A program made the position numbers and the translations under genes. Shown one piece after another: positions 13,574 to 31,119 of a stretch of DNA of 46,866 nt. This stretch comes from Saccharicrinis sp. GTDB taxonomy: Bacteria; Bacteroidota; Bacteroidia; Bacteroidales; Marinilabiliaceae. The notes beneath the pieces were generated by a model that saw nothing but the letters and a program-made list of their open reading frames with translations, was not told the DNA's origin and made no database searches. The DNA is taken from NCBI GenBank assembly GCA_024635555.1, contig JAGXIO010000221.1, forward strand, positions 1-46,866, read 5' to 3'. Within the stretch, counting starts at the first letter, position 1; every line of letters starts with the position of its first letter.

Positions 13574-16258
13574 TTAATTATCTTTTAAGGTTTCATTGTG
13601 GTAGGTGTTTTCAATTATTGAGCAAAACTCCGACAATGCATCTAAATCTTTGTCAATTCCTTCAATATCAAAGTTAATCGAATTTTGGGATATGTCAGAC
13701 GCGATAGTTGTTAGGTAGTCCAAATTGAATTGCTCCGCAACAAGCTCCAAATTTTTAATAAGTAGCTTAATTTTTAATGAGGAGTGCAGTTCTTTTATTT
13801 CTCGTATCAATGGTAGCACCGATTGTTTTACCTCATTATATACAGCTTCCACTTTTTGTGGTGGCTTAATTTCGAACTTTATAGACGATTGTTTTCTCTG
13901 TATAGACTTGATTTTTTTGTGTTTGAGGTGCCAGGATAAAACAATAAGTAGTTCGTTTAAGTATACGGGCTTTGATATGGAAAAACTGAAGCCATCGATG
14001 TTTGTTTTGATGTTTTGTATATCGGAAGTGGCAGTGAGTGCAATAACGGGAATGTGTTTTATATGCACATCCGATTTTAATATTTGCATGGCTTCGTGCC
14101 CTCCCATAATGGGCATTTTAATGTCCATTATAATAAGATCGGGGTGTATTTTAGTTGCCATTTCAACCGCTTGAATACCGTTTTCGGCTTCGTACATTTC
14201 AAACCCATAGGGCATTAAAAGCCCTTTTATTACCTGTCTGTCTATCTCTCTGTCGTCCACTAATAATATCTTAGAGGGATAAAATTCAATTCTGTTCGTA
14301 TCAAACTGTACCTCCTTCGGCAATCCCGTTTCACTGTCTACAATGCTTATATTGGGTATCCTGATGGAGAAAATGCTACCCTCGTTTTGCTTACTCTTTA
14401 CATGTATATGGCCACCCATAAGGTTAACCAACCTGTTGCTAATAGAAAGCCCCAGCCCAGTGCCTTCGTACAACCTATTGTCCTGGTCGTCGCGTTGTCT
14501 AAAATCGTCAAAAATAACGCCCAGTTGATCTGCTTCTATCCCTATGCCCGAGTCGCTTACCGATATCATAAGGCTGTTCGAATTGTTAGTGGATTTTTCA
14601 ATTTGATAGGCCACCTGTACAAAGCCGGTGGAAGTAAATTTAATGGCGTTGCCAATAATGTTGATAAGCACTTGTTTTAAGCGCATATCGTCGATTAATA
14701 TAGTTTTAGGAGTGGGTTGTTTTTCTATGATTTCAAACACCAGACCTTTTTCCTGTGCTTGCACCTGAAATATTTTGGTAGTTTCTGCAAGCAAATCTTT
14801 AATGTTTACCTCTGATAGCTGGAGCTTTAGTTTTCCCGCTTCAATTTTCGACAAGTCCAATACCTCGTTAAGCAAGGTTAGCAATGTTTTGCCACTTTTG
14901 GTAATAGATGAAAGGTAATTGAGCAAACTTTTATCTGTGATTTTTTTCTCTAATATCTCCGAAAAACCCAGTATTGCGTTTAAAGGTGTACGTATTTCGT
15001 GGCTCATATTGGCTAGGAAGGCACTTTTTGTTTTATTGGCTGCTTCGGCTAGTTCCTTGGATCTATGGAGTTCTATCTCGGATATCTTACGCACCGTAAT
15101 ATCCCTGAAACTCCAAATACGCCCTATAATTTTATCGTCCATCATCTGAGGACCCGAAAAGCAGTCGAGATACCTTCCGTCTTTCAATAAAATTTCGGAA
15201 TTAACTTGGTTATCGTGTATGTTTACTGTCTCTTCTTTAAGTTGTTGGTACAAGCAATTATTGCTTGTTTTTTCATGTACATAGTTTTCAAAATCGGCTT
15301 TTGTGAGCAGGGGAGCGGTGGGCGCGATATTCCATACTTTGTATAGATTTTGATTTATGAGCACCACCTTGTTTTTGTTGTCGATAACAATTAAGCCCGA
15401 TGTGGTAGATTCAATGGTGGCCTTAAGTAACGATTGCTGCTTAAGAATTTTTAACTCTTTATTTTTACTTTCAGTAACATCCTGAAAATAACCTACCATG
15501 GTTACAGGGTTGCCGTCGATGTCCCATTCGGAGAAGATACCGGTACTTAAAATCCATTTAACACTATGGGTATTTATTTGAATTATAAAGGTCGATTCAT
15601 AGCTGGCATTCTTCCCATTAATAAAATTGGTAAAATCTTTTTCAGCTTTTTCTTTTTGCGAGGAATGAATATAATTGAGCAGCCACGAAAGGTTAAAATT
15701 TTGTGTGTCGATGTTGGAGTTTTCGATAATGGTTTTAAAAAAGGGGTCTATTCTAAATTGCTGCCTGCTAAGATCAAATTTCCAGCTAGCAATTTTGCCA
15801 TTTTTTGTGGCCAAGGATAACATATACTCCGTATCGGCATTGTCGGAATCGGAAGAGAAATGGTTGGTTTGGTTTTTTATACTTAATAAGTACCCCGAAA
15901 ATCCTGTTTTACTGTCCTGAGCAGGATCTAATTGTACGGAAACGCTATATTCAATTCCTTTTTCGGATATGAAAGAAAAAAAATTTACGTTGTTTTTTAT
16001 GTCAGCATGTTCTTGTTCCGAATAAAATGTGAAATGAATTTTTTTGCCGCTGGTACTGTCGTAAAAATTGAGCACATCATCAATTTGCTTACCCACCAAC
16101 TCTTTTTTGGTGAGGTCGGCATACAAACAAAGTTGTGTGTTTACTGCATGTATTACTCCATTCTTATCATAGGCCACAAAGGCCATGTCGGACGAGTTGA
16201 AAATTTCAAAACTCAAATCCAACTCTTCTCTATGGTTTATTCGATGCTTGTTCCACAT
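13574..16258 (-). CDS. Soluble PAS-rich hybrid histidine kinase / response regulator
   Basis: This 894-residue protein has no membrane helix or signal peptide and should be cytoplasmic. PAS-like domains lie at about 18-125, 145-265 (ending GYFQDVTES) and 275-395 (ending SFRDITVRK). HisKA follows, with phospho-acceptor H420 in MSHEIRTPLN. The ATPase domain (about 520-640) has the N box (IGNAIKFTSTG), DSGIGIEADQ and GTGLGLSIS. The receiver (about 658-775) has DD pairs, D712 in IIMDIKMP, and K in FSISKPV. The last 100 residues are helical and look like a phosphotransfer bundle, but no HxxKGSS motif is present. It closes the left arm of the divergent locus, 41 bases after the small secreted gene. 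Confidence 0.9.
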   Translation of the reverse strand: MWNKHRINHREELDLSFEIFNSSDMAFVAYDKNGVIHAVNTQLCLYADLTKKELVGKQIDDVLNFYDSTSGKKIHFTFYSEQEHADIKNNVNFFSFISEKGIEYSVSVQLDPAQDSKTGFSGYLLSIKNQTNHFSSDSDNADTEYMLSLATKNGKIASWKFDLSRQQFRIDPFFKTIIENSNIDTQNFNLSWLLNYIHSSQKEKAEKDFTNFINGKNASYESTFIIQINTHSVKWILSTGIFSEWDIDGNPVTMVGYFQDVTESKNKELKILKQQSLLKATIESTTSGLIVIDNKNKVVLINQNLYKVWNIAPTAPLLTKADFENYVHEKTSNNCLYQQLKEETVNIHDNQVNSEILLKDGRYLDCFSGPQMMDDKIIGRIWSFRDITVRKISEIELHRSKELAEAANKTKSAFLANMSHEIRTPLNAILGFSEILEKKITDKSLLNYLSSITKSGKTLLTLLNEVLDLSKIEAGKLKLQLSEVNIKDLLAETTKIFQVQAQEKGLVFEIIEKQPTPKTILIDDMRLKQVLINIIGNAIKFTSTGFVQVAYQIEKSTNNSNSLMISVSDSGIGIEADQLGVIFDDFRQRDDQDNRLYEGTGLGLSISNRLVNLMGGHIHVKSKQNEGSIFSIRIPNISIVDSETGLPKEVQFDTNRIEFYPSKILLVDDREIDRQVIKGLLMPYGFEMYEAENGIQAVEMATKIHPDLIIMDIKMPIMGGHEAMQILKSDVHIKHIPVIALTATSDIQNIKTNIDGFSFSISKPVYLNELLIVLSWHLKHKKIKSIQRKQSSIKFEIKPPQKVEAVYNEVKQSVLPLIREIKELHSSLKIKLLIKNLELVAEQFNLDYLTTIASDISQNSINFDIEGIDKDLDALSEFCSIIENTYHNETLKDN

Positions 16259-16299: not shown

Positions 16300-16734
16300 T
16301 TATTTATAAGCAATTTTAAAGCCTGCGCATTCATAGGTGTTAGGACTTTGCCAATTGGGTGCCGAAACTTCAATTAAAAGCTTTTGTGTGTTATCTACCT
16401 TAAATACTTTAGAATCGCAAAGGCCTTCGGCAGCATTATCGTACAACACCTTATTGTTTGTTGGACTGATAATTTTAAATTGTAGTACACCCACCTTGGG
16501 TTTTGAATACGTAGAGAAAAAATATTCCTTACCACCGAAAACGTTGAGCATTACCGCAATTTTTTTACCCCTTCGCAATTTTATAGACCGCGATGAGGTA
16601 CTTAGGGTGTACGATTTATCGGGTGATTTGCATTTTTTATAGGTGTTGGAGCAGTCGTTGGCATACGCTATGGCACTTGCAAAACCAACTATGCTCAGGA
16701 AAATTATCCAGGATATTTTCTTCTTCATATTCAA
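16300..16734 (-). CDS. Small secreted protein, paralogue of the gene at 29494
   Basis: I do not recognise the family. The 144-residue product has a clear signal peptide (KKKISWIIFLSIVGFASA, cleavage near residue 25) and a mature part of about 119 residues. It has four Cys, in CSNTYKKC near the N-terminus, GLCDSK in the middle and ECAGFKI near the end. Landmarks are VFGGKEYFF, the segment ending LYDNAAEG, LLIEVSAPNW and C-GF-I-Y. The same landmarks in the same order recur in the gene at 29494, on the other arm. A small beta-sandwich is likely. A Met at residue 3 is an alternative start. No terminator separates it from its neighbours on this arm. Confidence 0.78.
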   Translation of the reverse strand: MNMKKKISWIIFLSIVGFASAIAYANDCSNTYKKCKSPDKSYTLSTSSRSIKLRRGKKIAVMLNVFGGKEYFFSTYSKPKVGVLQFKIISPTNNKVLYDNAAEGLCDSKVFKVDNTQKLLIEVSAPNWQSPNTYECAGFKIAYK

Positions 16735-16870
16735 ATTAATATCAGGATTAACTTTTTATTTGGATTTTACTCCGGTAGAATAAAATTTACTTCATGCTAT
16801 TCTTGATCTCAATATAATAAATTAACACCACATATCCGATTTTATTTTCCGCATGCAAATTGCTCGCGAA

Positions 16871-17767
16871 TTACTGCCTAATCATCCTGGTTCTAAAATC
16901 TTTTACATTATCGGAGAATATAAAATAATTTTCTTCGGTTAAGGTAATGTCATTTTTACTTTCGATGTGCAGTGTTCCATTGGGCTGCATGTTGGCTTCG
17001 GCGTCGCCAAAATTTACGTTTAGGTCTTTGTACGATTTTTCGAGTACGTTTAAATCATTGATTAAACCGTTAAGGCTAGCATCGGTTTGATAGGTTTTAA
17101 CCATGGTAAATATATCTTCGAACAATAGTTTTTGTTCGGCAATGCGGTCTATGGCTTCTTTTTGCTTGTCAAAATCGCTATGCAAACTTGTGGTTATATA
17201 CAAACTCTCCACAAAAGCGCCAGCAGAGAGTAAGGATAAAGTTTTTCCCTGATCATATTCCTGTAGGTAGCTAATAACAGTGTCGTACAATTCGCGCGAA
17301 ACGGCATATATCGAATCAGGTACTACGGAGGCATTTACAATTCTTTTTTGTTGTTCTTTTGTGAAACTGGGATTTATGTTCAGTTCTTTTAAAAGATAAT
17401 CTATCGTTGCAAGATATTCGCCCGAAAAATCGGATTTGTTAAATGCAGATATATAGGCCAAGTCTGCAAAATATATTCCACAAGCAATAGCCTTTTTCTC
17501 GTAGCCCTCATATAGTTTTGCCTCTTTGTAGTTGTGCATCAATTTGGCATCAAAAGTAACTTTGTTATCGTTTATGTACGTAATGATTTCTTCGGGTGAG
17601 GGCAACGCATAAAAAATTGCATCAATCGAATCGATAACACTTATGGATTCAAAGTTTAACGATGGTTCTATGTTATCTTTACTTTGTTTGGTACTGCTGC
17701 ATCCGTTACAGGCATTTAAAAGTAGGGCGAGTGCTGCAATTGTGGGTAAAATTATTTTTCTCATCAT
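16871..17767 (-). CDS. Predicted lipoprotein of unknown function
   Basis: This is a 298-residue lipoprotein: ALALLLNAC gives a lipobox with C20, followed by NGCSSTKQS. The mature part is largely helical and acidic, with heptad-like stretches at 90-130 (LYEGYEKKAIACGIYFADLA) and 195-250 (FDKQKEAIDRIAEQKLLFED). The last 40 residues are beta-like (GTLHIESKNDITLTEENYF). I recognise no domain or active site. It sits 43 bases after the receiver gene and 136 bases before the small secreted gene, in the same direction, so it is probably part of the left-arm operon. Whether it faces the periplasm or the surface cannot be decided. Confidence 0.72.
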   Translation of the reverse strand: MMRKIILPTIAALALLLNACNGCSSTKQSKDNIEPSLNFESISVIDSIDAIFYALPSPEEIITYINDNKVTFDAKLMHNYKEAKLYEGYEKKAIACGIYFADLAYISAFNKSDFSGEYLATIDYLLKELNINPSFTKEQQKRIVNASVVPDSIYAVSRELYDTVISYLQEYDQGKTLSLLSAGAFVESLYITTSLHSDFDKQKEAIDRIAEQKLLFEDIFTMVKTYQTDASLNGLINDLNVLEKSYKDLNVNFGDAEANMQPNGTLHIESKNDITLTEENYFIFSDNVKDFRTRMIRQ

Positions 17768-17810
17768 AAAATATGTGTTAAAAATCTTCCTTTCGATTAA
17801 ATGTTAATTC

Positions 17811-18932
17811 TTAATTACTTGCAATTGAATTCAATCCAAAATTCCATATAAATGACATCAATTCTTTGGTGTCTTGTTTTATTTCAAATTGCCCATGATG
17901 AAAATTCATCACTATATCGGCATACGAAAAATAGAGCAATGTTTCTTCGGGCATGGTATCCGCATCGGCATAGTTCCAGCCCGGGGGATTAAAAGAAATA
18001 ATGAGCTCTTTTTTTTCCGGAGATTCATGAAACCTAATATTGATACGAGAGTCAGGGGCATTATGTTTGAAAATTGCGTCTAAAACTCCAAAAATAGAGT
18101 TTTTTATTAATTCTTTGTTGCCTTTTATGGTAATCTTATCATCCACTTCACACTGAATATCCAGATTTTTACTTTCTATCAGTTCATCCTGTTGTATCAT
18201 CAAGAGTTCAATAACTCCATTAAGGTAAAATTCCTGAAATTCTATGTCATCCTTGTTATTTATCTGTGTAATTTGACTGGCCATTTTTACTATTAAACTA
18301 AGGTTTACCACCGAGCGCTCTAACAAACCAATCATTTCGGACATGCGCGACGATTCGGCGGAATGCTTAATTAGGGTAACCGCCATATTAATATCGTTTA
18401 AGGGGGTTGTTATCTCCCTACCGATAAAAGCTAGAAATTTATCTTTGGTTTGGGTCAGTGCCTGCAAGCGCTTGTTCGATTCTTCCAATTGTAGGGTTCG
18501 CTCAAGCACCTTTTGTTCCAGCACCAAATTTGCATTCTGTATTTCTTCTTTGCTCTTTTTTAGTTCGATATGTGTGCTTACTCTGGCCAGCAACTCAGAG
18601 GTGTCAAAGGGTTTCGATATAAAATCCTGTCCACCAACTGCAAAACCGTGTACCGTACTTTCTTTATCGTTTTTGGCCGTAAGATATATAATGGGCAAGA
18701 TATCTAAGGTGGGTATTTTACGGACAGCCTCACAAACTTCGAACCCGTTTTTTTCGGGCATCATAATGTCCAATAACATTAAATCGAAAGTTTGCTCTTC
18801 AACCCATTGTAAGGCTTCTTTGCCTCCAAGTGCCATCTCAACCTCGTATCCATTGTCGCTTAATATATTTGCTATTACCTGAATGTTTTTAGGATTGTCG
18901 TCTACCACCAATATTCTGCCTCTGTTGTTCAT
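17811..18932 (-). CDS. Receiver domain fused to a histidine-kinase-like half lacking the phospho-His
   Basis: Residues 7-120 are a standard receiver: the acidic pair at D11/D12, phospho-acceptor D55 in LMLLDIMMP, and K107 in FISKPFD. A coiled coil (about 123-160) follows. Next comes a HisKA-like helix, but its H box reads FLAFIGREITTPLN: R172 stands where the phospho-His should be. The ATPase-like half (about 225-365) also lacks clear signatures: the N box is LIKNSIFGVLDAIF, and no DxGxG or GxGLGL loop is found. It should receive phosphate but not autophosphorylate, and may act by binding or dimerisation. Its stop is 43 bases before the lipoprotein gene, and it starts 4 bases after the PKD gene's stop. 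Confidence 0.86.
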   Translation of the reverse strand: MNNRGRILVVDDNPKNIQVIANILSDNGYEVEMALGGKEALQWVEEQTFDLMLLDIMMPEKNGFEVCEAVRKIPTLDILPIIYLTAKNDKESTVHGFAVGGQDFISKPFDTSELLARVSTHIELKKSKEEIQNANLVLEQKVLERTLQLEESNKRLQALTQTKDKFLAFIGREITTPLNDINMAVTLIKHSAESSRMSEMIGLLERSVVNLSLIVKMASQITQINNKDDIEFQEFYLNGVIELLMIQQDELIESKNLDIQCEVDDKITIKGNKELIKNSIFGVLDAIFKHNAPDSRINIRFHESPEKKELIISFNPPGWNYADADTMPEETLLYFSYADIVMNFHHGQFEIKQDTKELMSFIWNFGLNSIASN

Positions 18933-18936
18933 GTAA

Positions 18937-21900
18937 TTATCTTAATAAATTTATAGAACCTTTTTTCTCCAACACCTCATCATTATAGGTGATTACTTTT
19001 ACTACGTAATTATAAGTATCCGCTATTTGTGGGTTGCCTCTAAAATTACCATCCCAACCGTTGACTAAATTGTCCGTTTCAAACACTATTTGCCCCAAGC
19101 GGTTGAACACCCTAAAATAGATTAACTTTTTCAATCCCCATCCCTTTACGTAAATTATATCGTTTGTGTTATCATTATTTGGGGTAAAAGCAGTGGGAAC
19201 ATCTACCGAGTACTTTTTTTCTACGCTTACTTTAGCTTCGTAATCTACAGTAAAACAATTACTTGTGTCGGTAACGCTTACGATATAATTGGTGTTTTGC
19301 AAAGGTAATAAAATTGGATTTGGGCAATCTGTACACGATATTCCAGGCAAATTTTCCCAAATGTATGATTTAATGTCGGCGCGAGCCAAATTTATTTGAA
19401 CCGATTCGCCAATAATAATGGTGGTGTCAACAACATCAACTACGGGCTTTTGCTGAACGGTGATATGCACTGAATCCTCATTTACGCAGGAATTTTCGTC
19501 CGTTACGCTCACTGTAAACGTGGTGTTAGTGTCGGGACTGGCAATAGGGTCATTTATGTTGAAAAAATCTAGGTATTCTGTATGATTCCACTGGTACGAA
19601 ACTCCTCCACTGGCCAAGAGCATTAAGTTGTTACCCTTACAAATAAAGGTGTCAGAGCTGTCAGACAAGATGGTAACCGTGGGTAGAGGATAGGCAGTTA
19701 CAACATCCACCACCGTATCGCTGCAACCAAAACTATCCTGCGCAATAAGTTTAAGATTATATGTTCCATCATTTTCATAAAGAAACGAAGGATTTTCTGC
19801 CAAGCTCTCTATTCCATTGCCGCTTTGCCATTGGAAGTTCCCGGCATTTTCAGATTGGTTTATAACAGCCATATTAAAAGGAACACACCCATTTTTAACA
19901 TTGTCTTGATAAGTAAATTTGGCTTTTACTTCCTTATGTACAAAAAGCGTGTCTGTTATATAAATGTTCGGGCAACCAAATATGGGATCTGATTCAAGTA
20001 TTAATGAGGGGTTTATAATGCCCGCGCCGTAGTATCGATGCTTGCTTTCCAAATCGGTAGAAGTACTGCCATCTGTAAAGTCCCAAACTATTGATGAAAG
20101 GTTTTGTTCATTTTTAAATGAAAAAGAGACCTCGCTTCCAAAGCAAGCGGTATCTGGAAGCACCATTTCGGCATATGGTCCGTTTAGGCGAATAAACTCT
20201 GGTTTGGTAAGAGTGTCCGCACATCCATTGGCCGAATAGGCAATAAGCGATACATCGTAATCGCCTGGTTTACTATAGATATGCTTGGGGTGTTTTAAAA
20301 CAGATTCGTTTAGGTTGTCGCCAAATATCCATTTTTGCGATCCTGATCCGGTATATTCTGTTTCGTTATTGAAGTAAATTGGGAGGGTATAACAATTAGA
20401 TTCATTCTTATTGCTGGTAAATTTGGCCACCGGCGGCTCCTCGATACTGATATACGATGGTACGGTGTGATTAAGTTCGCATCCGTGATCGTCGATAATT
20501 TTAAGTGATACATCGTAAGAGCCTGGTGAATGATATACATGTTTGACATTCCGCAGCGTACTTTGGTTTCCGTCGCCAAAATCCCATAAAAAGTCGGTAA
20601 CGTTACTTTTAGAGCGATCCCAAAAAAACAATGAATCGTTAATGCATGCATCGGCATCCGAAACAATAAAGGCGGCATGTGGGTCTATCACCTTTATTTC
20701 ATTTTTAAGCAACATGGTTGATGTACAACCTTTTTGGTTGGTAAGCGAAAGGCGCACGTTGTAGGTGCCAAAAGCCTGGTACTCGTGAACCGGGTTTTCC
20801 TGATCTGAGGTGGCATCATCGCCAAAATCCCAGTCCCATTGGGTGATAGGCAGCTCATGCTCGCTTACATTATTAAACTGGTATTTAACGGGCATACAAC
20901 CGTCCACATAATCGATTGTAAATTTGCTCAGCGGCTTAAAAATTTTTATTTCTTTGCGCAGGGTGTCGGTGCAATTGTTTCGGTCCTTCACCACCAGTTG
21001 GGCTATAAAAGTACCATTATTGTTATATTTATGCGTAGTAGGTTCGTCGGTAAACTGCACGGGGGTATTGTCGCCAAAATCCCATAAATACTTTTTATAA
21101 AGTCCGTTGAAATCAAAAGAGGAGGCATCTTGGCTCTGACCCGCATCGAATAAGAGGGAGGTATTGGCACAGGGGCCAGTACCCGTGGTATCGAAAACCG
21201 TTATAGGTTCAGATATTATTATATTGTTTGAATAGGAATAGGAACACTCACTGCCACTTTTTTGGGCTTTTAAAACGAGCGAATACTTACCTTTTTGGGA
21301 ATAGGTATGCGAAAAATTAGTGCCGGCATTTACAATGGAATCACCATCATCAAAGTAGAAAGTATAAGTGTCTGCATCAATTAGGTCAATTGAGAAATCG
21401 GCTTTGTAGGGCGAATCGCAATTTTGTATCCGGTTGTATTTGGCAATGGGGCCTTTAATGTACAAGGCCTTTGCCTTGGTAACGGAGCTTACGCATCCGT
21501 TGTGCGTTACTTTTAATTTCACATCCATATATCCCGTATCGGTATATTGATGCATGGATATTCCCATTTCGCTTTGCATTCCATCCCCAAAATCCCAAGT
21601 TACATCGTCAAAAATAGGAGCATTGTTTGTTATGTCCTCAAATTCAACCTCTTCGCTTGCGCAAAAAACACTTTTGTCCTTGACGGCAAAGTCAGGCTGC
21701 ACTTTTTGTCCTACCGAAATATTTACACTGCTGCTGGCGACACATCCCAATTCTGTTTCCACAGTTAAATTCACCTTGTATTTGCCCACATCAGCATAGG
21801 TTCGTTGAAAGGTGTCTTGGTTGGTATAACTCTCCTGTTCTGTTTTCCATGTGAGCCCGGTAATATGATCCAACGGGGTGTCGTAAGTTATTGTGTGCCC

Positions 21901-23331
21901 AAAATTTAGATCAATAGGCTGACATCCCGAGGTAGGATTGTCGCTTGTAATGTTTACTTGCGGCAGCACAATTTGTAACACATCTATTTTTTCTACCTTG
22001 AGCTTACAGCCATAAATGCTGGTGACCTCAAGCGTAGTAGTATAATTTTGTTTTTTATTATCGGCAAGTTCTTTGGTAGAGGGGTAGGTGTGCGTAGGTA
22101 TCATCTCCGAAGAAGTTTCATCTTTACCAAAATTCCAACTGTAGCTTTCTATATTGTTGCCAGCAGGAGTGTAGGTAATATTAACAGGTACCTGGCAAGC
22201 AAAGCTGTCGGATATAGTAAAGTCCACCTTCACATCTTCAACATGTATAAGAGTGGTAGTGGTGCTCACGCATTCATAGTTTTCAATCATTAGCTCAACC
22301 ACATAATCGCCCGGCTTGGTAAAAATATGCGATGGACTAACTTCAGCAGAGCTTGTGCCATCGCCAAAATCCCAGCTGTTGGTGCGGTTGTTTACCGAAG
22401 TATTGGTAAATTTTATGGGCGTGTTGGGGCAAACTGTATCTTTCAACATGGAAAACGCTGCCATTGTATTGCTTACCTCTATTATTTCCTCAAAGGTGAT
22501 GGAATCCGTGCATCCCAAATTGTCGCTTAGGGTTAAAGAAACATCGTAAACTCCGGTTTGGAGGTAGGTATGTAAAGGATGTTTCAATAGGGAGCTTTGC
22601 TGATCGCCAAAATCCCATTTGTAACTTAAGTTTCCTAAGCCATCAGATTGGTTGGTAAACTGTGTATTTAAGCTGCCGTTGCATGAATAGCGATCCGCGA
22701 CCTGAAAATCTGCGGTAGGTTTTTGAACGGTAATTAATTCTTCACGAGTAGCTTTACCAACACAACCATTTTCATCTTGATAAATTAACGTAATATTATA
22801 CACTCCGGGTTGTTGAAACAAATGTACTGGGTTTTTATCATTGCTGAAATTTCCGTCTCCAAAATCCCAGGTGTAATTGCCATTGGGTGAGCTTGACGAA
22901 ACACCGCTCATGAAATTCACATCAAATGGAGCACATTGTTCGGTTGGTATATCGGGCGTAAAACTTACAGAAGGCAAATCATAAACACGGATAAAATTAT
23001 TCTTAACCAGAATTTCACTTTTATCTGCATCAAAAATGGTAAGACTAACGTTATAACTTCCAAGAGTGTTGTAGATGTGAGAAGCATTTCTAAATGTGGA
23101 GATATTACCGTCACCAAAATCCCATAAATAAGTGTAGTTCTCGTTGCTTGGGCTTTGATTAACAAAATAAACTTGCAGCGGAGCGCAACCTTCTTGTTTT
23201 TCCGACGTAAAATTCAAATCAATTTGTGATTTTACAGGAGTAAAAGAAAATAAGGTAATAATAAAAAGAAACATTAAAAATTGTAGATACTTATGCATGA
23301 TACTAATATTTTTACCTAAATTATGAATCAT
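18937..23331 (-). CDS. Giant PKD-repeat surface protein with type B T9SS sorting domain
   Basis: This 1464-residue protein is predicted to be secreted by type IX secretion and displayed on the surface. A signal peptide (YLQFLMFLFIITLF, ending PVKSQ) is followed by about 14 PKD-type repeats, most with a WDFGDG-like motif and a later H-Y...G-Y-V-L pattern; several end in GC. Two Ig-like segments follow (about 1220-1370). The last 90 residues (PTAFTPNNDNTNDIIYVKGW, then FNRLGQIVFE and NGWDG) are a CHU_C/gliding-type C-terminal domain. A second ATG at residue 12 (23298) gives a tidier signal peptide and more room for the divergent promoter. A role in adhesion is inference. The PorP and PorE-like genes diverge from it. 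Confidence 0.92.
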   Translation of the reverse strand: MIHNLGKNISIMHKYLQFLMFLFIITLFSFTPVKSQIDLNFTSEKQEGCAPLQVYFVNQSPSNENYTYLWDFGDGNISTFRNASHIYNTLGSYNVSLTIFDADKSEILVKNNFIRVYDLPSVSFTPDIPTEQCAPFDVNFMSGVSSSSPNGNYTWDFGDGNFSNDKNPVHLFQQPGVYNITLIYQDENGCVGKATREELITVQKPTADFQVADRYSCNGSLNTQFTNQSDGLGNLSYKWDFGDQQSSLLKHPLHTYLQTGVYDVSLTLSDNLGCTDSITFEEIIEVSNTMAAFSMLKDTVCPNTPIKFTNTSVNNRTNSWDFGDGTSSAEVSPSHIFTKPGDYVVELMIENYECVSTTTTLIHVEDVKVDFTISDSFACQVPVNITYTPAGNNIESYSWNFGKDETSSEMIPTHTYPSTKELADNKKQNYTTTLEVTSIYGCKLKVEKIDVLQIVLPQVNITSDNPTSGCQPIDLNFGHTITYDTPLDHITGLTWKTEQESYTNQDTFQRTYADVGKYKVNLTVETELGCVASSSVNISVGQKVQPDFAVKDKSVFCASEEVEFEDITNNAPIFDDVTWDFGDGMQSEMGISMHQYTDTGYMDVKLKVTHNGCVSSVTKAKALYIKGPIAKYNRIQNCDSPYKADFSIDLIDADTYTFYFDDGDSIVNAGTNFSHTYSQKGKYSLVLKAQKSGSECSYSYSNNIIISEPITVFDTTGTGPCANTSLLFDAGQSQDASSFDFNGLYKKYLWDFGDNTPVQFTDEPTTHKYNNNGTFIAQLVVKDRNNCTDTLRKEIKIFKPLSKFTIDYVDGCMPVKYQFNNVSEHELPITQWDWDFGDDATSDQENPVHEYQAFGTYNVRLSLTNQKGCTSTMLLKNEIKVIDPHAAFIVSDADACINDSLFFWDRSKSNVTDFLWDFGDGNQSTLRNVKHVYHSPGSYDVSLKIIDDHGCELNHTVPSYISIEEPPVAKFTSNKNESNCYTLPIYFNNETEYTGSGSQKWIFGDNLNESVLKHPKHIYSKPGDYDVSLIAYSANGCADTLTKPEFIRLNGPYAEMVLPDTACFGSEVSFSFKNEQNLSSIVWDFTDGSTSTDLESKHRYYGAGIINPSLILESDPIFGCPNIYITDTLFVHKEVKAKFTYQDNVKNGCVPFNMAVINQSENAGNFQWQSGNGIESLAENPSFLYENDGTYNLKLIAQDSFGCSDTVVDVVTAYPLPTVTILSDSSDTFICKGNNLMLLASGGVSYQWNHTEYLDFFNINDPIASPDTNTTFTVSVTDENSCVNEDSVHITVQQKPVVDVVDTTIIIGESVQINLARADIKSYIWENLPGISCTDCPNPILLPLQNTNYIVSVTDTSNCFTVDYEAKVSVEKKYSVDVPTAFTPNNDNTNDIIYVKGWGLKKLIYFRVFNRLGQIVFETDNLVNGWDGNFRGNPQIADTYNYVVKVITYNDEVLEKKGSINLLR

Positions 23332-23356
23332 TAAGTGTGTTAAGTTAGATTAATGT

Positions 23357-23386
23357 TTTGTACGGGTAAGTTAACGAATAGTTTCT
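23357..23386 (+). promoter_or_regulatory. Possible promoter of the right arm (PorP operon)
   Basis: TTTG at 23357-23360 is followed after 18 bases by TAGTTTCT at 23379-23386. The spacing fits Bacteroidota promoters, but the -7 box departs from TAnnTTTG at its last two bases. It lies in the 83-base centre shared with the leftward PKD operon. Confidence 0.35.
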
Positions 23387-23414
23387 AGCTATTAATAAGA
23401 AAAAATATATTACT

Positions 23415-24431
23415 GTGAAATTTTTTTACCTAAGTATATATCTGATTATAATTACAACCTTTCTGGATGTAAATGGTCAGACCTTACACTATTCGCAATT
23501 TTTTTCATCGCCTTTACATTTAAACCCTGCCTTAACAGGTGTTATCGATGCGCAGTGGCGGTTCATCAATAATAACCGAACACAGGGTATGTATTTTGGC
23601 GATCCATTGAATACAATAAGTGTTTCGTATGATAGGTCGATGAATTTTTATAAAAGTACGGTGGGTCTTGGTGCATTATATAGCTATGATAATGCTTCGG
23701 GACCATCCTTGCCCACCAATAAGTTTTACCTGTCGGGTAGCAGTAACGTGCAAGTATCGGAGCGCTCATACATTGGCGCAGGCTTGCAGGTAGGTTGGGT
23801 GATGCGTAGGCTGCAGTTGGGAAATTATACCTATCCTGAGCAGTACGACCGGGAAACAGGAGGCTTTAATGAATTATTGCCCAATTCAGAAAATTTTTCG
23901 AGGGAATACTCAAATTATATGGATGTTAATATGGGTGTATTATGGAATTATAGAGGAGAGGGTTATGTGCTGAGTACCGGTGTGGCCATGTACCATGTAA
24001 ACCGGGCAAAAGATTATTTTTTAAATGAAAATAAGCCCCTTGCGGTTCGCACCAACTGGCATGGCTCGATAAAAATAAAGTTGAATGAGCAATTTTACGT
24101 TCTGCCACAATCGTATTATACCTTTTATAACAAAACATCCGAGTTTTTGGTAGGATCCAATGTGGGCATGGAGCTTAATGCGGCCAACCAGGATTATAAA
24201 AGTTTGAGCGTGGGTGCTTATATCCGCAATGGCTTTAACCGCGAATTTGAATCGGCCATACTGTTGCTGGGCTTAAACTATCGTAACTGGACAGCCATAA
24301 CCAGTGTCGATGTGGATATATCGGGGTTAAAAACAACAAATATTTTTACCCATGCCTTCGAGCTCACCTTAATATATCAGAGGCCTTGGGCTATTCTTAA
24401 AAAAACAACCATCCCATGCATAAGATATTAA
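23415..24431 (+). CDS. PorP/SprF-family type IX secretion membrane protein
   Basis: This is a 338-residue outer-membrane beta-barrel of the PorP/SprF family. The family hallmark follows the signal peptide (residues 1-21): YSQFFSSPLHLNPALTGV. Later marks are WRFINNNRTQ, SYDRSM, a Gly-rich strand GLGALYSYD and repeated aromatic-ended strands. In Flavobacterium johnsoniae the relative SprF is needed to deliver the type B cargo SprB. By analogy this copy should serve the PKD protein encoded divergently. The start is GTG at 23415, chosen because it gives a full signal peptide. The end overlaps the next gene by 16 bases, so the two are translationally coupled. Confidence 0.88.
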   Translation: MKFFYLSIYLIIITTFLDVNGQTLHYSQFFSSPLHLNPALTGVIDAQWRFINNNRTQGMYFGDPLNTISVSYDRSMNFYKSTVGLGALYSYDNASGPSLPTNKFYLSGSSNVQVSERSYIGAGLQVGWVMRRLQLGNYTYPEQYDRETGGFNELLPNSENFSREYSNYMDVNMGVLWNYRGEGYVLSTGVAMYHVNRAKDYFLNENKPLAVRTNWHGSIKIKLNEQFYVLPQSYYTFYNKTSEFLVGSNVGMELNAANQDYKSLSVGAYIRNGFNREFESAILLLGLNYRNWTAITSVDVDISGLKTTNIFTHAFELTLIYQRPWAILKKTTIPCIRY

Positions 24432-26482
24432 TCCTCTTAGTTTTTTTTGTGTCGATTTGTAAAAATCACAACCAACTGCATGCTCAGCCCTATGATGTTA
24501 AGGATTTGAAGCAATGGCAAATAAAGGGTTATGCAAAAAGTGCAGAGGTACAAGGCGATTATATTTCGGCCATTTATTACTACAGTAATCTTTACAAAAA
24601 AAATCCGCGCAAAACAAAATATCTATGGAAGCTGGCCTACCAGTATCAGCAATCCAGAGATTATTTAAGTGCTTATGAAGCATTCGACAAGTTGGTAACG
24701 AAGTGTCCTAAAAGGGAGATGCTGGCCAATTATTACAAAGCAATAAATGCCAAGTCTTTGGGTTATAATGATGAGGCTTATGAATTGTTAAAAAAAATAA
24801 GGGTCAGAAAGCAAAAAAAATGGATGCCCAATTATTTCGAGATGTTGGTGGAAAGCCAAATGCGAGGTTGCGAACTGGCTATGGAGATGAAGGACTCCAT
24901 CAACCAAAAGAAAATGGTGGAGCTGGCACCCGGTATCAATCGGCCACATATCGAGTTCAACCCTTTTTATCTTTCCGATACTGTTTTTGCGTATTCGTCG
25001 GCGGCCGTGGATACTATAGCGTATTACGAAGTGGATAGTATTAGACCGAAACGAAAATTTTATTTAGCCACGAAAGATAGTTTGGGTTGGACGGGCGGCC
25101 ACCAGCCGGGGAAGCCATTTTTTAACTCGCCCAAATATGATACCGGCGATGGTGTTTTTTCGATGGATGGCCAGCGCTTTTATTTTACCCGTTGCAGCCG
25201 CAATTGGCAAAATAAAATGATATGTAATTTATATGTTAGCGAAAAGTTTAAGGACGAATGGTTGAAACCATATGAACTGGGTAGCGAAATAAATTTGAGA
25301 AATTTTTCATCTACCGAACCGGCTGTGGGAACCTGCTATGATCCTAATTTAGAGGTAGTTTATTTTGTTTCGACACGTCCTGGGGGGTACGGCCAAACAG
25401 ATATTTGGTACACTATTTACGATTTAGTAAAACAAACTTATCAAAAACCCGTAAACGCAGGTATTTACATTAACACATCGGGAGCTGAGGCAACACCGTA
25501 TTTCGATAGATTGAGCCATAATATGTACTTTAGTTCCGATGGTTGGCCTAATTTTGGGGGCTTAGATGTGTTTAGTGCGTACGGTGAACTGGTGAGTTGG
25601 GACGAGCCCGTGAACATGGGTTATCCTATTAATTCTAATTGCGATGATTTATATTACTCTGAGGATGAATTTGGAGAAAAAGGTTTTATAACGTCAAACA
25701 GAGGGGGAGGGCTATCGTTGACACATGAAAATTGTTGCGATGATATTTACCCATGGAAATCCACCTTTGCCGAAAAAATAGCCGTGAGTGCTGTGTTGGT
25801 AGGTGTTAATGCGGATTTTAAAAAAATGGGTATTATAAACCTTATATCATCGGGTAAAACAGGGACACAAGGTATTTTAAAAAATACTAAAGTTGATATT
25901 TACATACAAAAAGATAGCACCAACTTGGTTTATATTAACAGTACAACAACAGATAGTTTTGGGAATCTTAATTTTTTAAGTCCTATTGATATGGATTTCC
26001 GGATGGTGATTGCAGATAAAAGGGTTATCCGCAAAAATATAGAATTTTCAACTCGTGGCTTATCGTCTGAAGAGTTAAACATGGGGCAGGTAAGTTTGCA
26101 AACGATGGATACAGTAACGCATGTATTGCCTCAGGTTTTTGGTCCCGGCAACCAAACAAAGTTAAGTGCTGATGAATATGCTATTATAGATGGAGGATTG
26201 CTAAAAATGATGCTATTATATCAGGATGTAAGTGTTGAAATAGGTTCGCATACAGACAGCCGAGGTAATGATAAATATAATATTAGGCTCTCGGATAGGA
26301 GGGCTCGCGAAGTGCTTAGATATTTAATAAGTAAAGGTGTAAATGAGGATAGGTTAAAAGCTGTTGGTTATGGTGGAAGCAAACCAATTGCACCCAATAA
26401 AAAAGACGATGGTACCGACAATCCTGAGGGTAGGCTTTTAAATTGGAGAACAGAGTTTATGCTAATAGATAGTAATAATTAG
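24416..26482 (+). CDS. PorE-like TPR - PD40 propeller - CRD - OmpA protein
   Basis: This 688-residue envelope protein has the order known from the T9SS protein PorE. TPR-like helices lie at about 30-150 (SAEVQGDYISAIYYYSNLYK onward). A PD40/WD40-type propeller spans about 200-450 (FSMDGQRFYFTRCS; YFDRLSHNMYFSSDGW; SNRGGG). A carboxypeptidase-regulatory-like beta domain covers about 488-555. The OmpA C-terminal domain is at about 570-688, with IGSHTDSRGNDKYNIRLSDR and GVNEDRLKAVGYG. The OmpA domain should grip peptidoglycan and anchor the PorP partner. The N-terminal signal contains VSIC, but Ile before Cys makes a lipobox doubtful; cleavage after HAQ is the alternative. It overlaps PorP by 16 bases, and the ABC gene starts 2 bases after its stop. 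Confidence 0.88.
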   Translation: MHKILILLVFFVSICKNHNQLHAQPYDVKDLKQWQIKGYAKSAEVQGDYISAIYYYSNLYKKNPRKTKYLWKLAYQYQQSRDYLSAYEAFDKLVTKCPKREMLANYYKAINAKSLGYNDEAYELLKKIRVRKQKKWMPNYFEMLVESQMRGCELAMEMKDSINQKKMVELAPGINRPHIEFNPFYLSDTVFAYSSAAVDTIAYYEVDSIRPKRKFYLATKDSLGWTGGHQPGKPFFNSPKYDTGDGVFSMDGQRFYFTRCSRNWQNKMICNLYVSEKFKDEWLKPYELGSEINLRNFSSTEPAVGTCYDPNLEVVYFVSTRPGGYGQTDIWYTIYDLVKQTYQKPVNAGIYINTSGAEATPYFDRLSHNMYFSSDGWPNFGGLDVFSAYGELVSWDEPVNMGYPINSNCDDLYYSEDEFGEKGFITSNRGGGLSLTHENCCDDIYPWKSTFAEKIAVSAVLVGVNADFKKMGIINLISSGKTGTQGILKNTKVDIYIQKDSTNLVYINSTTTDSFGNLNFLSPIDMDFRMVIADKRVIRKNIEFSTRGLSSEELNMGQVSLQTMDTVTHVLPQVFGPGNQTKLSADEYAIIDGGLLKMMLLYQDVSVEIGSHTDSRGNDKYNIRLSDRRAREVLRYLISKGVNEDRLKAVGYGGSKPIAPNKKDDGTDNPEGRLLNWRTEFMLIDSNN

Positions 26483-26484
26483 GT

Positions 26485-29448
26485 ATGGAATTATACTTTA
26501 AATATAATACATTAAAAAGTGTAACTGAGCTGTTTGGACTCTTCAGGAATACAGGTTCTGAAGTCTTTGACGGCTTGGACTATTCGTATCTGGATCAATT
26601 CCTGAGCACTCGTTTTTCGCAAAAGGTACGAATGCAGATGCTCGATTATTACAAAGATTACGTACTATCCTGCAAAGCTATCAATGAGGATGAATATGAG
26701 CTTCGCATTATCCAACATCTGAAGCAATTATTTGGCGAACTATCTGAAAACCAAAAAGTAGAGCTTTATGTTGCTCTGCTTATTTATGTTGTAGATTCCG
26801 AAAAAGTGGCCGGAGGTAATAAAGCCCTGCCCAGATTAGTAAACCAACTAAAATTGGTGAGCAATGTTTTTGAGCTTGATGAGTCAAGAATCAAAAGCGT
26901 GACCCATTTTATCCGTAATGATTTGGCCTTGGAGCAGCATCCAAAAGGCTTGATAATGGTAGGCAACTTTGCAAGAGTAAAGCTCCGTTCGTTCCGTATG
27001 TACCATAAAGCTGATCTGAAAGGGAAAATAATGGCCTTTTATGTGCCTTCGATGTCTTCCTTTCTAATTAAATATATCGGTAACGGGCAACTCCAATTGA
27101 ACAAGCAGGTAATGTTTCCCGAAAGGATATATCAGTTTACCTTGGGAGGTATTATCGAAGGGGAGGATATGCAGCCTTTGTATTTTGCCGACCTGAACGC
27201 CACCTATCAAAATTCAGAAAAAGAAGGGCTGGAGCTGATTGCCCATAATGTGGAAAAAACTTTTAAGGAAACCGATTTGGGTATTCACGAGCTTTCGTTT
27301 AAGGTGGGAGGCGGACAGCTGATGGCAGTAATGGGTGGAAGCGGAACAGGTAAAACAACCCTGTTTAACGTGCTCAGCGGAATTACCTTGCCCGATAAAG
27401 GGAGTGTTTATTTGAATGGCTACAATTTACACGATAACATCCTTAAACTAAAAAAACACCTCGGCTATGTGCCACAGGAAGATTTGTTGATAGAGGAGCT
27501 TACCGTATTGCAAAACTTAATGTATAGTGCCAGGTTTTGCCGTAACGATTTGTCAAAAAAAGAGTTAGAGCAGTTGGTTAACGATACCTTGAGCGATTTT
27601 GCCCTAAGCGGTATTGGTAATTTAAAGGTAGGCAGTCGCTTGGATAAGGTTATAAGCGGCGGACAGCGTAAGCGCTTGAATATTGCGCTGGAGCTCATTC
27701 GTCAACCCGATGTGTTGTTTGTGGATGAGCCTACATCTGGTTTGTCGTCGTCGGATGCTTTGTTGGTGATAAGGCTTTTAAAGAAAATAGCCAATATGGG
27801 CAATATAATAATTGTGAATATTCACCAGCCCACATCCGATTTGTTCGTGCTTTTCGATAAACTTCTTATCCTAGATGATAAAGGGTATGCTGCTTATTAT
27901 GGCAATCCTTTTTCGGCCAGTTCGTATTTTAAAAAGCAATTGGAGTTTGTTGATTCTATAAACGATGACAGTATAAAGCACGGACAGTGCAACCCCGAAC
28001 AGGTTATCAATTTACTTCAATATCAAAAGCATTCCGATAAAGGCGAGCTTATAGGACAAAGGGAGTTCGATAGCATTCACTGGAATAAGCTGTTTAAAGA
28101 AAATACCAAAGAAGAGCTAATTGTAGAAACCGGTATTTTAGGTCATCCACTCACCTGTATTCCCCCAAAAGTTAAACAGTTTTGGATTTATTTACAACGT
28201 AATGTGGCTATTCGAAAATCCGACACGCAATATTTAACACTTATTTTTTTAGGAGCCCCACTTTTGGCCTTTATGATGGCCTTTTTTTTAAAGTCAACCG
28301 ATTTGCTTACCCACGAGTATCGGTTTATTGATAACGATAATATACCTGCTTATTTATTTATAAGTGTTGTGGTGGCACTTTTCCTGGGGCTTATTTTAAG
28401 CTCCGGCGAAATTCATCGCGACCTTAAGGTAATCAAACGCGAGAGTTTTTTGAGCTTAAGCCCTTTTTCCTATATAAACTCAAAATTAGTATATGTAGCC
28501 TTAGTAAATGCAGTTCAAATCATGCTGTTTGTATTGGTGGGCAACAGTATCCTCGAAATAAAAGGTTTGTATTTCGAATACGTGCTTATATTATGGCTTG
28601 CAGCCATGAGCAGCAGTATGATGGGTCTATACATATCCGCCAAGCTTAAATCCATCTTGTCCATATATATAACCATACCTTTTTTGTTGATACCTCAAAT
28701 ATTGCTGGCTGGAGCGATACTCGATTTTGATAAGATGCACCATACGTTGGCATCCGAAAAGTACGTGCCTATATACGCCAATGTTGCCATTTCGCGATGG
28801 GCCTACGAAGCATTGATGGTGCTACAATTTACTGAAAATAAATACGACGAAGGCTTAACGGATCTGCTTATCGAACAAAGCACCATGAGCTATTATGCCA
28901 ACTTTTTTGTCCCCAAACTTGAAACCTTACTCACCGAAATGGGTAAAAACGAAGAGCAACATTCCGAGGAGGCGATAAACGTATTGTTAGTCCAAATGGT
29001 GAAACAATTTCCCCAATTAACAAACGAGATGGAAACACTTGATAAAGCACCTCTCGACCGATTAAAATTGCAAAGCATATTAACAAGGGTTAAAAAGTGG
29101 CTCCGTTCCAATTTGAATCTGCTTTACCAAAGAGTAGAGGAGGAAAGATTGGAGAAAGGAATCCAATTTCCTAAAAAAGATTTTTATAATCAAAAACTAT
29201 CGGAGTTTATATTAAAAAGTAACGATTACAACAAGTATGTTTACCGAAATGGCCGAATGGTGCGAAAATATCAGCCGGGATACCAGGTTGCCAATGACAA
29301 ATTGGGGAGGGCTCATTACTATGCACCTATAAAAACTATAGGCTCGTTTAAAATAAAAACCTGGCTGTTTAATGTTTACTTAATGATAGCATTGTCGGCT
29401 ATATTTTACATCATGGTTTATATACATCTAACACGAAAAAAGTTTTAA
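26485..29448 (+). CDS. ABCG-like ABC transporter (ATPase and permease fused) with extra N-terminal region
   Basis: This 987-residue inner-membrane protein combines an ATPase and an ABC-2 permease in ABCG order. Walker A is GGSGTGKTT (about 284-292), the signature ISGGQRKRLNIA (about 389-400), Walker B DVLFVDEPTSGL (about 409-420) and the switch His in NIHQPTSD. Five helices lie at about 585-760 and one at the very C-terminus (about 965-982). A soluble insert of about 200 residues separates them. Ahead of the ATPase lie about 250 residues: a helical part (60-150, EYELRIIQHLKQLFGELSEN) resembling TerB-like bundles, then a beta-rich part (160-235). Substrate unknown. It starts 2 bases after the PorE-like stop. 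The extra regions could tie it to its partners. Confidence 0.9.
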   Translation: MELYFKYNTLKSVTELFGLFRNTGSEVFDGLDYSYLDQFLSTRFSQKVRMQMLDYYKDYVLSCKAINEDEYELRIIQHLKQLFGELSENQKVELYVALLIYVVDSEKVAGGNKALPRLVNQLKLVSNVFELDESRIKSVTHFIRNDLALEQHPKGLIMVGNFARVKLRSFRMYHKADLKGKIMAFYVPSMSSFLIKYIGNGQLQLNKQVMFPERIYQFTLGGIIEGEDMQPLYFADLNATYQNSEKEGLELIAHNVEKTFKETDLGIHELSFKVGGGQLMAVMGGSGTGKTTLFNVLSGITLPDKGSVYLNGYNLHDNILKLKKHLGYVPQEDLLIEELTVLQNLMYSARFCRNDLSKKELEQLVNDTLSDFALSGIGNLKVGSRLDKVISGGQRKRLNIALELIRQPDVLFVDEPTSGLSSSDALLVIRLLKKIANMGNIIIVNIHQPTSDLFVLFDKLLILDDKGYAAYYGNPFSASSYFKKQLEFVDSINDDSIKHGQCNPEQVINLLQYQKHSDKGELIGQREFDSIHWNKLFKENTKEELIVETGILGHPLTCIPPKVKQFWIYLQRNVAIRKSDTQYLTLIFLGAPLLAFMMAFFLKSTDLLTHEYRFIDNDNIPAYLFISVVVALFLGLILSSGEIHRDLKVIKRESFLSLSPFSYINSKLVYVALVNAVQIMLFVLVGNSILEIKGLYFEYVLILWLAAMSSSMMGLYISAKLKSILSIYITIPFLLIPQILLAGAILDFDKMHHTLASEKYVPIYANVAISRWAYEALMVLQFTENKYDEGLTDLLIEQSTMSYYANFFVPKLETLLTEMGKNEEQHSEEAINVLLVQMVKQFPQLTNEMETLDKAPLDRLKLQSILTRVKKWLRSNLNLLYQRVEEERLEKGIQFPKKDFYNQKLSEFILKSNDYNKYVYRNGRMVRKYQPGYQVANDKLGRAHYYAPIKTIGSFKIKTWLFNVYLMIALSAIFYIMVYIHLTRKKF

Positions 29449-29493
29449 AGCGCCAGATCCAATGTTATATTTAATTTTAAAAACATAAATAAG

Positions 29494-30006
29494 ATGCAAA
29501 ATTTCGTCTCCAAATTTTTAACAATTACAGTTATACTAGGTTTGCTAGTATTAAGTAATACTAACGCCCAGTCCTGTACTGAGGTGCTTAAGCTATGTGC
29601 GCCGGCAGATAACCTTTACAATAAGCAATCGATGGCCCGCACCTTTAAAATGAATCCTTCTCAAAAATTAAAAATTATACATGTTTTTTACGGGGGAACT
29701 GCCTATCATATCGATATATGCAAACCAGAAAGCTTGGGTAATTTTCATTTAACGGTGGTAGATGTCGAAACAGGTGCTATTTTTTGGGATAATGCTGCCG
29801 ATGATTTCGAGAGCCAAATTAATATAAGTTTTGGATCTACCAAGCGTATCATTATTGAAGTAGAAGCAGTAAATCCCGAAAACTTTAATAAGCAACAGAA
29901 TTGTTTGGGATTGATAATCAAATATCATCGCGAAGAGCAAGTTGCCAAAACTAAAGAATTAGAATTACCCGAATCACCTGAATCGCCTGGATCACCAATT
30001 TTTTAA
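29494..30006 (+). CDS. Small secreted protein, paralogue of the gene at 16300
   Basis: Family not recognised. The 170-residue product has a signal peptide (TVILGLLVLSNTNAQ, cleavage near 26) and a mature domain with the same landmarks as the product at 16300: an N-terminal Cys pair (SCTEVLKLC), FYGGTAYHI, FWDNAADD, RIIIEVEAVNP and NCLGLIIKYH. Both therefore share one fold and probably two disulphides. This copy adds an extra Cys (DICKPE) and a 25-residue tail of Glu, Pro and Ser (ELPESPESPGSP) absent from the other. It lies 45 bases after the ABC gene on the right arm. A role as paired extracellular subunits or cargo of the locus is inference. Confidence 0.78.
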   Translation: MQNFVSKFLTITVILGLLVLSNTNAQSCTEVLKLCAPADNLYNKQSMARTFKMNPSQKLKIIHVFYGGTAYHIDICKPESLGNFHLTVVDVETGAIFWDNAADDFESQINISFGSTKRIIIEVEAVNPENFNKQQNCLGLIIKYHREEQVAKTKELELPESPESPGSPIF

Positions 30007-31001: not shown

Positions 31002-31033
31002 AAAAAAGGCGATCCGAGGATCGCCTTTTTTTT
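31001..31033 (+). terminator. Bidirectional terminator between the SpoIID-like gene and spt
   Basis: GGCGATCC pairs with GGATCGCC around a minimal loop (about CGAG), flanked by seven A on the left and eight T on the right. It overlaps the stop codon at 30999-31001 and serves the two convergent genes. Confidence 0.88.
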
Positions 31034-31119
31034 AGAGTATAATTTCAACATTTTGTTGCATTCTATAAACCATCCAAATAATAGGCTTTTGGTATTGATA
31101 ATCTGACATCTGTAAATGA

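Follow-up and report, generated by a model that had tools for sequence, protein, structure and literature searches.

Type-B proteins of the T9SS that are linked to PorE have been proposed to be anchored statically to the cell wall, according to the relevant parts of PMC9143113 and PMC12618676. Described gene sets of this kind are PG1035-PorP-PorE of Porphyromonas gingivalis and Fjoh_3952-3950 of Flavobacterium johnsoniae. The locus considered here lies on contig 60 of genome G000; this stretch of 46,866 nucleotides is referred to below as the window. At positions 18937–26482, genes for a protein with a type-B C-terminal domain, a PorP/SprF family protein and a PorE-like OmpA protein likewise stand side by side. 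In contrast with the described sets, the window adds a two-component pair, an ABC/ABC-2 gene (ABC), a lipoprotein gene (LIPO) and genes for small secreted proteins (SMALL), none of which is named as part of the complex in the portions of the two papers drawn on here. The window ABC gene is also comparable to the GldA-GldFG gliding transporter in being of the ABC-2 type and lying beside T9SS-type genes, but its ATPase matches the GldA model at 84.9 bits, far under the cutoff of 402.6, and its ATPase and permease are fused. PMC9950754 presents a different tandem gene pair, pep25 and lbp26. The features of the window that are discussed below are as follows.

13574–16258, minus strand: hybrid histidine kinase with PAS domains, a recurrent neighbor
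16300–16734, minus strand: SMALL-A, a small secreted protein, predicted to be a beta-sandwich, with cysteines 26, 33, 104 and 134 counted from the ATG at 16728
16871–17767, minus strand: LIPO, a lipoprotein of about 300 residues, mostly helical, the usual operon partner of SMALL, with no Pfam or NCBIfam match
17811–18932, minus strand: RR-HKx, a response regulator with a weak histidine-kinase-like part, a recurrent neighbor
18937–23331, minus strand: PKD-repeat protein (14 matched stretches) with a CHU_C / T9SS type-B sorting domain
23415–24431, plus strand: PorP/SprF family protein with a single cysteine, fourth from the C terminus (..PCIRY)
24416–26482, plus strand: PorE-like / CHU_0125-like protein with an OmpA C-terminal domain, under the cutoffs of both NCBIfam models
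26485–29448, plus strand: ABC, with the ATPase (ABC_tran) and the ABC-2 permease fused in one protein
29494–30006, plus strand: SMALL-B, a paralogue of SMALL-A that looks divergent, with cysteines 28, 35, 76 and 137, a Q-rule context and an acidic/Pro/Ser C-terminal tail
30066–31001, plus strand: SpoIID-domain protein, the final gene of the right arm
30998–31035, no strand assigned: terminator-like hairpin that follows the right arm, with 17 pairs on the plus strand and 16 on the minus strand

Layout of the Window and the Adhesin Genes

The left arm runs PKD, RR-HK, LIPO and SMALL-A, and the right arm PorP, PorE, ABC and SMALL-B. Both small open reading frames stand as they had been described in a preliminary description of this DNA, and each does occupy the fourth place on its arm. 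For SMALL-A, the ATG at 16728 is the likelier start, giving a protein of 142 residues. Taken overall, the terminator scan found 14 sites as compared with 12.8 in shuffled sequences, which is no excess. A gene for an LptD-family protein is also present in the window, at 2619–5477 (LptD_2, 4.4e-172).

The PKD protein matches CHU_C at 6.5e-14 (52.3 bits, cutoff 27) and TIGR04131 at 5.5e-13 (48.9 bits, cutoff 35), and the PorP gene beside it matches TIGR03519 at 4e-35 (121.7 bits, cutoff 90.55). The PorE-like protein has full-length matches to the CHU_0125 and PorE models at 226 and 213 bits, under their cutoffs of 620 and 600, and its OmpA domain is over the cutoff. The SMALL/LIPO/ABC set is merged here with a T9SS type-B adhesin set. 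The lone cysteine of PorP lies in its C-terminal end (..TIPCIRY, window 24417–24431), and the P-C-x-x-Y pattern is kept in five of five PorP homologues of adhesin loci, the G143 homologue being excluded. SprF depends on its C-tail cysteines (CxC) for linkage to the gliding track, according to the part of PMC12635249 drawn on here, and, by analogy, the cysteine of the window PorP is a candidate for a disulfide link.

Relationship of SMALL-A and SMALL-B

The claim that the two small proteins are related is upheld by BLASTP (50.1 bits, E = 3e-13, 23% identity over 121 columns) and by whole-genome searches, in which SMALL-A and SMALL-B recover each other with E values of 1.6e-9 and 1.8e-9. An independent profile of 133 relatives, made without SMALL-A, SMALL-B and their two same-genus orthologues, matches SMALL-A at 6e-32 and SMALL-B at 1.1e-29; with this profile, the next best of the 89 open reading frames of the window scores 0.057 and the best of 89 reversed frames 0.69. 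Profile-profile comparison also supports the relationship, with a probability of 99.9%, but adds little because its profile contains SMALL-B. The landmarks that had been noted are in order and in register: a cysteine pair at 26/33 in SMALL-A and 28/35 in SMALL-B, GG at 65 and 67, DNAA at 97 and 99, IEV at 119 and 121, and C-G at 134 and 137. By the look of their N termini, read by eye, with a hydrophobic stretch and a cleavage-like site, both products would be secreted, as had been proposed. The Glu/Pro/Ser tail, read from the sequence, is indeed confined to SMALL-B; the tail of its same-genus orthologue differs, yet is also acidic and contains proline.

No T9SS C-terminal sorting domain of type A or B was matched in SMALL-A or SMALL-B with Pfam or NCBIfam. 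With a profile of 46 relatives, a third, weaker SMALL copy (53 bits) is recovered in G000; it lies on contig 193 and adjoins another ABC gene. Like SMALL-B, 25 of 137 relatives have a C-terminal Phe. A connection of this residue with ABC adjacency was considered and rejected, Phe being among the last three residues in 11 of 17 copies near ABC and 14 of 33 elsewhere (Fisher p = 0.23).

Distribution and Export of the SMALL Family

As judged from sequence, SMALL is a widespread, uncatalogued Bacteroidota family with no Pfam or NCBIfam model. When 77 members (SMALL-A, SMALL-B and 75 relatives) were searched against Pfam at an E value of 0.01, four families were matched by one member each, the best value, 0.0015, being that of one CHU_C match. 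Within the order, a two-sequence profile finds SMALL in at least 94 of 295 genomes. It is rare phylum-wide: in a sample of 392 genomes with a completeness of at least 90, SMALL is present in at least six and LIPO in at least nine. The order searches scored no more than 12 (SMALL) and 8 (LIPO) candidates per genome and the phylum searches no more than 9 and 6, so absences and copy numbers are lower bounds. Named carriers, in which SMALL adjoins LIPO, include Carboxylicivirga, Alkaliflexus, Anaerophaga, Breznakibacter and Cryomorpha. No mention of the SMALL family turned up in the literature listings surveyed.

In Bacteroidetes, signal peptidase I exposes a glutamine at the new N terminus, the Q-rule (PMC5837995, as far as the section used here). 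A Q-rule context, defined here as a small residue followed by Gln no more than two residues ahead of the first family cysteine (C1), is found in 124 of 137 SMALL rows, among them SMALL-B; SMALL-A lacks it.

Cysteines and Probable Disulfides

All four family cysteines (C1 to C4) are present in 102 of the 137 rows, including SMALL-B, which keeps the usual third cysteine as Cys76. SMALL-A and its orthologue in G238 keep C2, have lost C3 and have a new cysteine, residue 104 in SMALL-A. C1 and C4 are jointly absent from nine rows and discordant in two; C2 and C3 are jointly absent from 19 and discordant in eight, the discordant rows including one that is truncated (L139). In a thinned set of 109 rows the Fisher values for co-loss are 2.7e-10 (C1/C4) and 1.0e-12 (C2/C3). 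When only well supported, independent events on the tree are counted, three of three (C1/C4) and about three of four (C2/C3) agree, too few for significance. These paired losses, from few independent events, suggest disulfides C1–C4 and C2–C3, which are likely in the SMALL family. If this pairing holds, the disulfide pattern of SMALL-A would be unlike that of SMALL-B. In the SMALL proteins of L183, L186, L189 and L192, which lie beside ABC with no adjoining LIPO, C1 and C4 are absent, C2 and C3 are kept and there is an extra cysteine at another column.

Predicted Folds of SMALL-A and LIPO

The model of SMALL-A (mean pLDDT 91.9) has eight strands and two short helices in addition to a signal peptide that is helical. 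Its best matches among solved structures are the GOLD domains of p24 proteins (Foldseek E = 2.6e-5 and TMt 0.73 with 5azw_B; Z = 9.9 and rmsd 2.5 over 92 residues with 5azw_A by VIA); channel, collagen-binding, PPC, PliG and further sandwich domains match equally well. SMALL-A is therefore predicted to be a GOLD/PPC-like beta-sandwich, an assignment of fold class only, not of function. By this model it shares its broad fold with the GOLD (p24/TMED, SEC14-like), PPC and collagen-binding sandwiches but, in contrast to these, SMALL is bacterial, secreted and free-standing, with a four-cysteine pattern of its own, and no sequence relation to them was found. A sequence search of solved chains with SMALL returned only BspA, at an E value of 0.22, and the curated GOLD and PPC models of Pfam are absent among the matches of the 77 members at 0.01.

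The structural match to the periplasmic lysozyme inhibitor PliG (4dzg; E = 1.3e-4, Z = 9.2) is among the top ones, and would fit a SMALL that acts as a soluble inhibitor or as a lectin-like, PliG-like binder of envelope glycans with LIPO as its anchor. The gene that follows SMALL-B is also in keeping with such a role, the SpoIID domain being known elsewhere for peptidoglycan cleavage. We consider this reading quite improbable, however, because PliG is tied with the GOLD, collagen-binding, PPC and channel domains, because BspA is the sole solved chain reached by sequence and because SpoIID is labeled in no other examined stretch save that of G238.

LIPO is modeled (pLDDT 82.8) as a helical protein with a C-terminal hairpin. 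No solved structure matched it at an E value of 0.001 by Foldseek; the best Z score by VIA was 7.6, below the level quoted for helical proteins, and the best value in a sequence search against solved chains was 0.044, for an occludin chain. None of these is a convincing relative of LIPO, and an absence of this kind is not evidence in itself.

LIPO as the Usual Partner of SMALL

In the window, SMALL-A lies directly downstream of LIPO, and SMALL-B follows ABC, not LIPO. When 80 loci were fetched with ten LIPO relatives, a SMALL gene was found immediately downstream in 75, with a gap of –14 to 191 bp and one SMALL per LIPO; this proportion comes from one LIPO subclade. The exceptions are L094 and L124, in which the sequence ends right after LIPO, and L106, L111 and L115. 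These last three have two LIPO genes in tandem with no SMALL adjoining, and in L106 and L111 an ABC gene follows. In 41 stretches fetched with SMALL, 40 hand-picked from the match list plus the window, LIPO is directly upstream of 31 of 50 SMALL genes; the other 19 include SMALL-B and the second copies of tandem pairs. Loci entered each of the two sets because they had one of the partners, and the raw counts ignore relatedness. At the level of genomes, 93 of the 94 with SMALL also carry LIPO, as compared with 123 of 295 in the order overall. The one SMALL genome with no LIPO match is G280, and 30 of the 123 LIPO genomes have no match to the two-sequence SMALL profile. LIPO and SMALL matches lie side by side in the phylum sample also, twice in G339 and once in G440. 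The usual partner of SMALL is, by this tight operon pairing, the lipoprotein LIPO.

Association with the ABC Transporter

Of the 41 SMALL stretches, 17 contain an ABC homologue, which in 16 of them is within 1.5 kb. Among 17 ABC matches in G000, G238, G143 and G029, four genomes of one family, 12 have a LIPO or SMALL match no more than about 460 bp away. Another, on contig 4 of G143, is 8 kb away, still in the same cluster. One on contig 11 of G000 runs to the end of its contig, and its partner may be the LIPO that lies close to an edge of contig 258; for the other three, neither gene occurs close by. Only five of the 80 LIPO loci, several of which are on short contigs, have a strong ABC homologue within four genes. 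ABC is therefore not obligatory, and the association applies to a portion of the family. In L091, L105 and L112, three of the remaining LIPO loci, the neighbors identified are housekeeping genes (among them DNA polymerase I, DUF1015 and UvrA) and one secreted peptidase. The ABC homologues of L184 and, weakly, L137 have a recognizable TerB domain, which is not seen in the window copy; no paper was found in a literature search on the TerB domain, ABC transporters and Bacteroidetes.

L184 (219–10805 of contig 73 of G000) is a single run of genes for CheR, CheB, GAF, PAS-SpoIIE, a SiaB-family kinase, a SiaC-family phosphoprotein, TerB-ABC-ABC2, LIPO and a 151-residue secreted protein. The last is possibly a very distant SMALL (E = 0.043) and was left out of the counts. 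The SiaB- and SiaC-family genes that this paralogous ABC-LIPO unit adjoins recall the SiaABC partner-switching system of Pseudomonas (PMC8457831, in the portion considered here); the SiaC protein is above the Pfam cutoff but below that of the NCBIfam equivalog. Unlike L184, the window locus shows none of these signaling genes labeled, its neighbors being the hybrid histidine kinase and the RR-HK protein. A literature search for SiaB, SiaC and Bacteroidota together returned no paper.

Divergence of SMALL-B

In the best tree (31 rows), SMALL-A groups with LIPO-linked copies of G143 (94/82, just below the level starred by the tool), and SMALL-B branches outside them with a length of 1.85; the separating forks are weak (89/77 and 63/92). 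A tree in which SMALL-A and SMALL-B are forced to be sisters is worse by 6.9 log units, which falls short of rejection (p-AU 0.125). With their orthologues in G238, SMALL-A has 82% identity and a dN/dS of about 0.05 and SMALL-B 60% and about 0.17, ratios that are rough because dS is near saturation. Taken together, the tree and this comparison indicate that SMALL-A looks like an ordinary LIPO partner and that SMALL-B looks like a divergent extra copy, constrained but faster evolving. The long branch and lower identity of SMALL-B could also be those of a decaying, functionless duplicate; this is very improbable, however, since SMALL-B retains an open frame, the four family cysteines, the Q-rule context and its low dN/dS in both genomes of the genus.

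Gene Orders in Adhesin Loci

PKD-PorP-PorE and SMALL are found in one cluster at six loci of five genomes (G000, G238, G143, G192 and, twice, G090). The mirror-arm layout is restricted among these to the window and G238, which are of one genus. In G090, one locus (C58) is a single run, HK-RR-RR-ABC-LIPO-SMALL-SMALL-PKD-PorP-PorE, and the other (C88) has SMALL ahead of PKD-PorP-PorE with no labeled ABC. In G192 the order is LIPO-SMALL-PKD-PorP-PorE up to the contig end, and in G143 PKD, on the minus strand, is divergent from PorP-PorE-HK-ABC, with RR-HK-LIPO-SMALL further to the right. L073, which is outside the six-locus count, encodes a PKD protein (213 bits) with no labeled PorP or PorE.

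The symmetric placement of the paralogues had been taken in the preliminary description as suggesting a heteromer or two alternative ligands. This reading is not supported, because the mirror layout occurs in one genus only and the same genes are otherwise ordered in G090 and G143; the two-arm symmetry looks like a rearrangement of one gene set, a quirk of the genus rather than a sign of pairing. A heteromer of SMALL-A and SMALL-B that bridges the products of both arms can also be considered apart from the symmetry. Each of the two genomes of the genus has retained SMALL-A and SMALL-B, which look constrained by the rough dN/dS values given above, and adjacent SMALL pairs recur in six of the 41 stretches, one of them at an adhesin locus (L039). 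We nevertheless regard a heteromer as unlikely: LIPO-fetched units carry a single SMALL per LIPO, three of the four adhesin loci of other genera have a single SMALL within the stretches fetched (including G143 and G192, the latter cut by the contig end) and the best tree, albeit with weak forks, does not place the two proteins as each other's nearest relatives.

SMALL immediately precedes the PKD adhesin gene in L038, L039 and L065. This order, the signal-peptide-like N termini of both proteins and a fold class that is common to many binding domains would all suit proteins that work outside the cell, whether as ligands, secreted or on the surface, or as adaptor domains for the adhesin. Such a role is nonetheless unlikely, as SMALL-A and SMALL-B show no T9SS sorting domain with Pfam or NCBIfam, CHU_C is matched by just one of the 77 members, as noted above, and the SMALL family is far wider than the adhesin.

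Proposed Role of the SMALL Proteins

In the explanation that we favor, and for which the balance is about even, SMALL-A and SMALL-B are disulfide-stapled partners in an envelope module with LIPO and ABC that serves the static adhesin, SMALL-B being an altered extra copy. The parts of this explanation that were computed are the homology, the fold class of SMALL-A, the operon pairing with LIPO and the frequent adjacency of ABC. SMALL would be exported by Sec and processed by signal peptidase I to give a beta-sandwich with two probable disulfides and, from its gene context, would bind LIPO in the periplasm. The SMALL-LIPO pair and, where present, the inner-membrane ABC protein may form one envelope-spanning unit for export or the transmission of force, which would be under two-component control. 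At the window locus, the unit would be coupled to the PKD adhesin, a T9SS type-B protein that PorP and PorE would hold, and would on that basis serve its assembly, release or regulation. SMALL-A would act as an ordinary LIPO partner, and SMALL-B, beside the ABC gene and evolving faster, may differ in role or specificity.

A broader version of this explanation, which we hold to be rather doubtful, is that ABC-LIPO-SMALL is an unrecognized Bacteroidota envelope machine in which the ABC-2 ATPase, TerB-tagged in homologues, would drive LIPO and the stapled SMALL. The machine would be plugged into varied signal pathways (SiaB/SiaC and CheB/CheR by one paralogue, histidine kinases here) and, in this clade, a T9SS type-B adhesin would have captured it as a switch for adhesin display; SMALL-B would be a specialized second adaptor.

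Of 295 genomes sampled from the order, 93 contain both of these families, neither of which has a Pfam or NCBIfam model; they form an operon pair that has no name in the literature surveyed. The lineages that tie SMALL-LIPO to a T9SS type-B adhesin would provide a genetic handle on the assembly or control of static adhesins.
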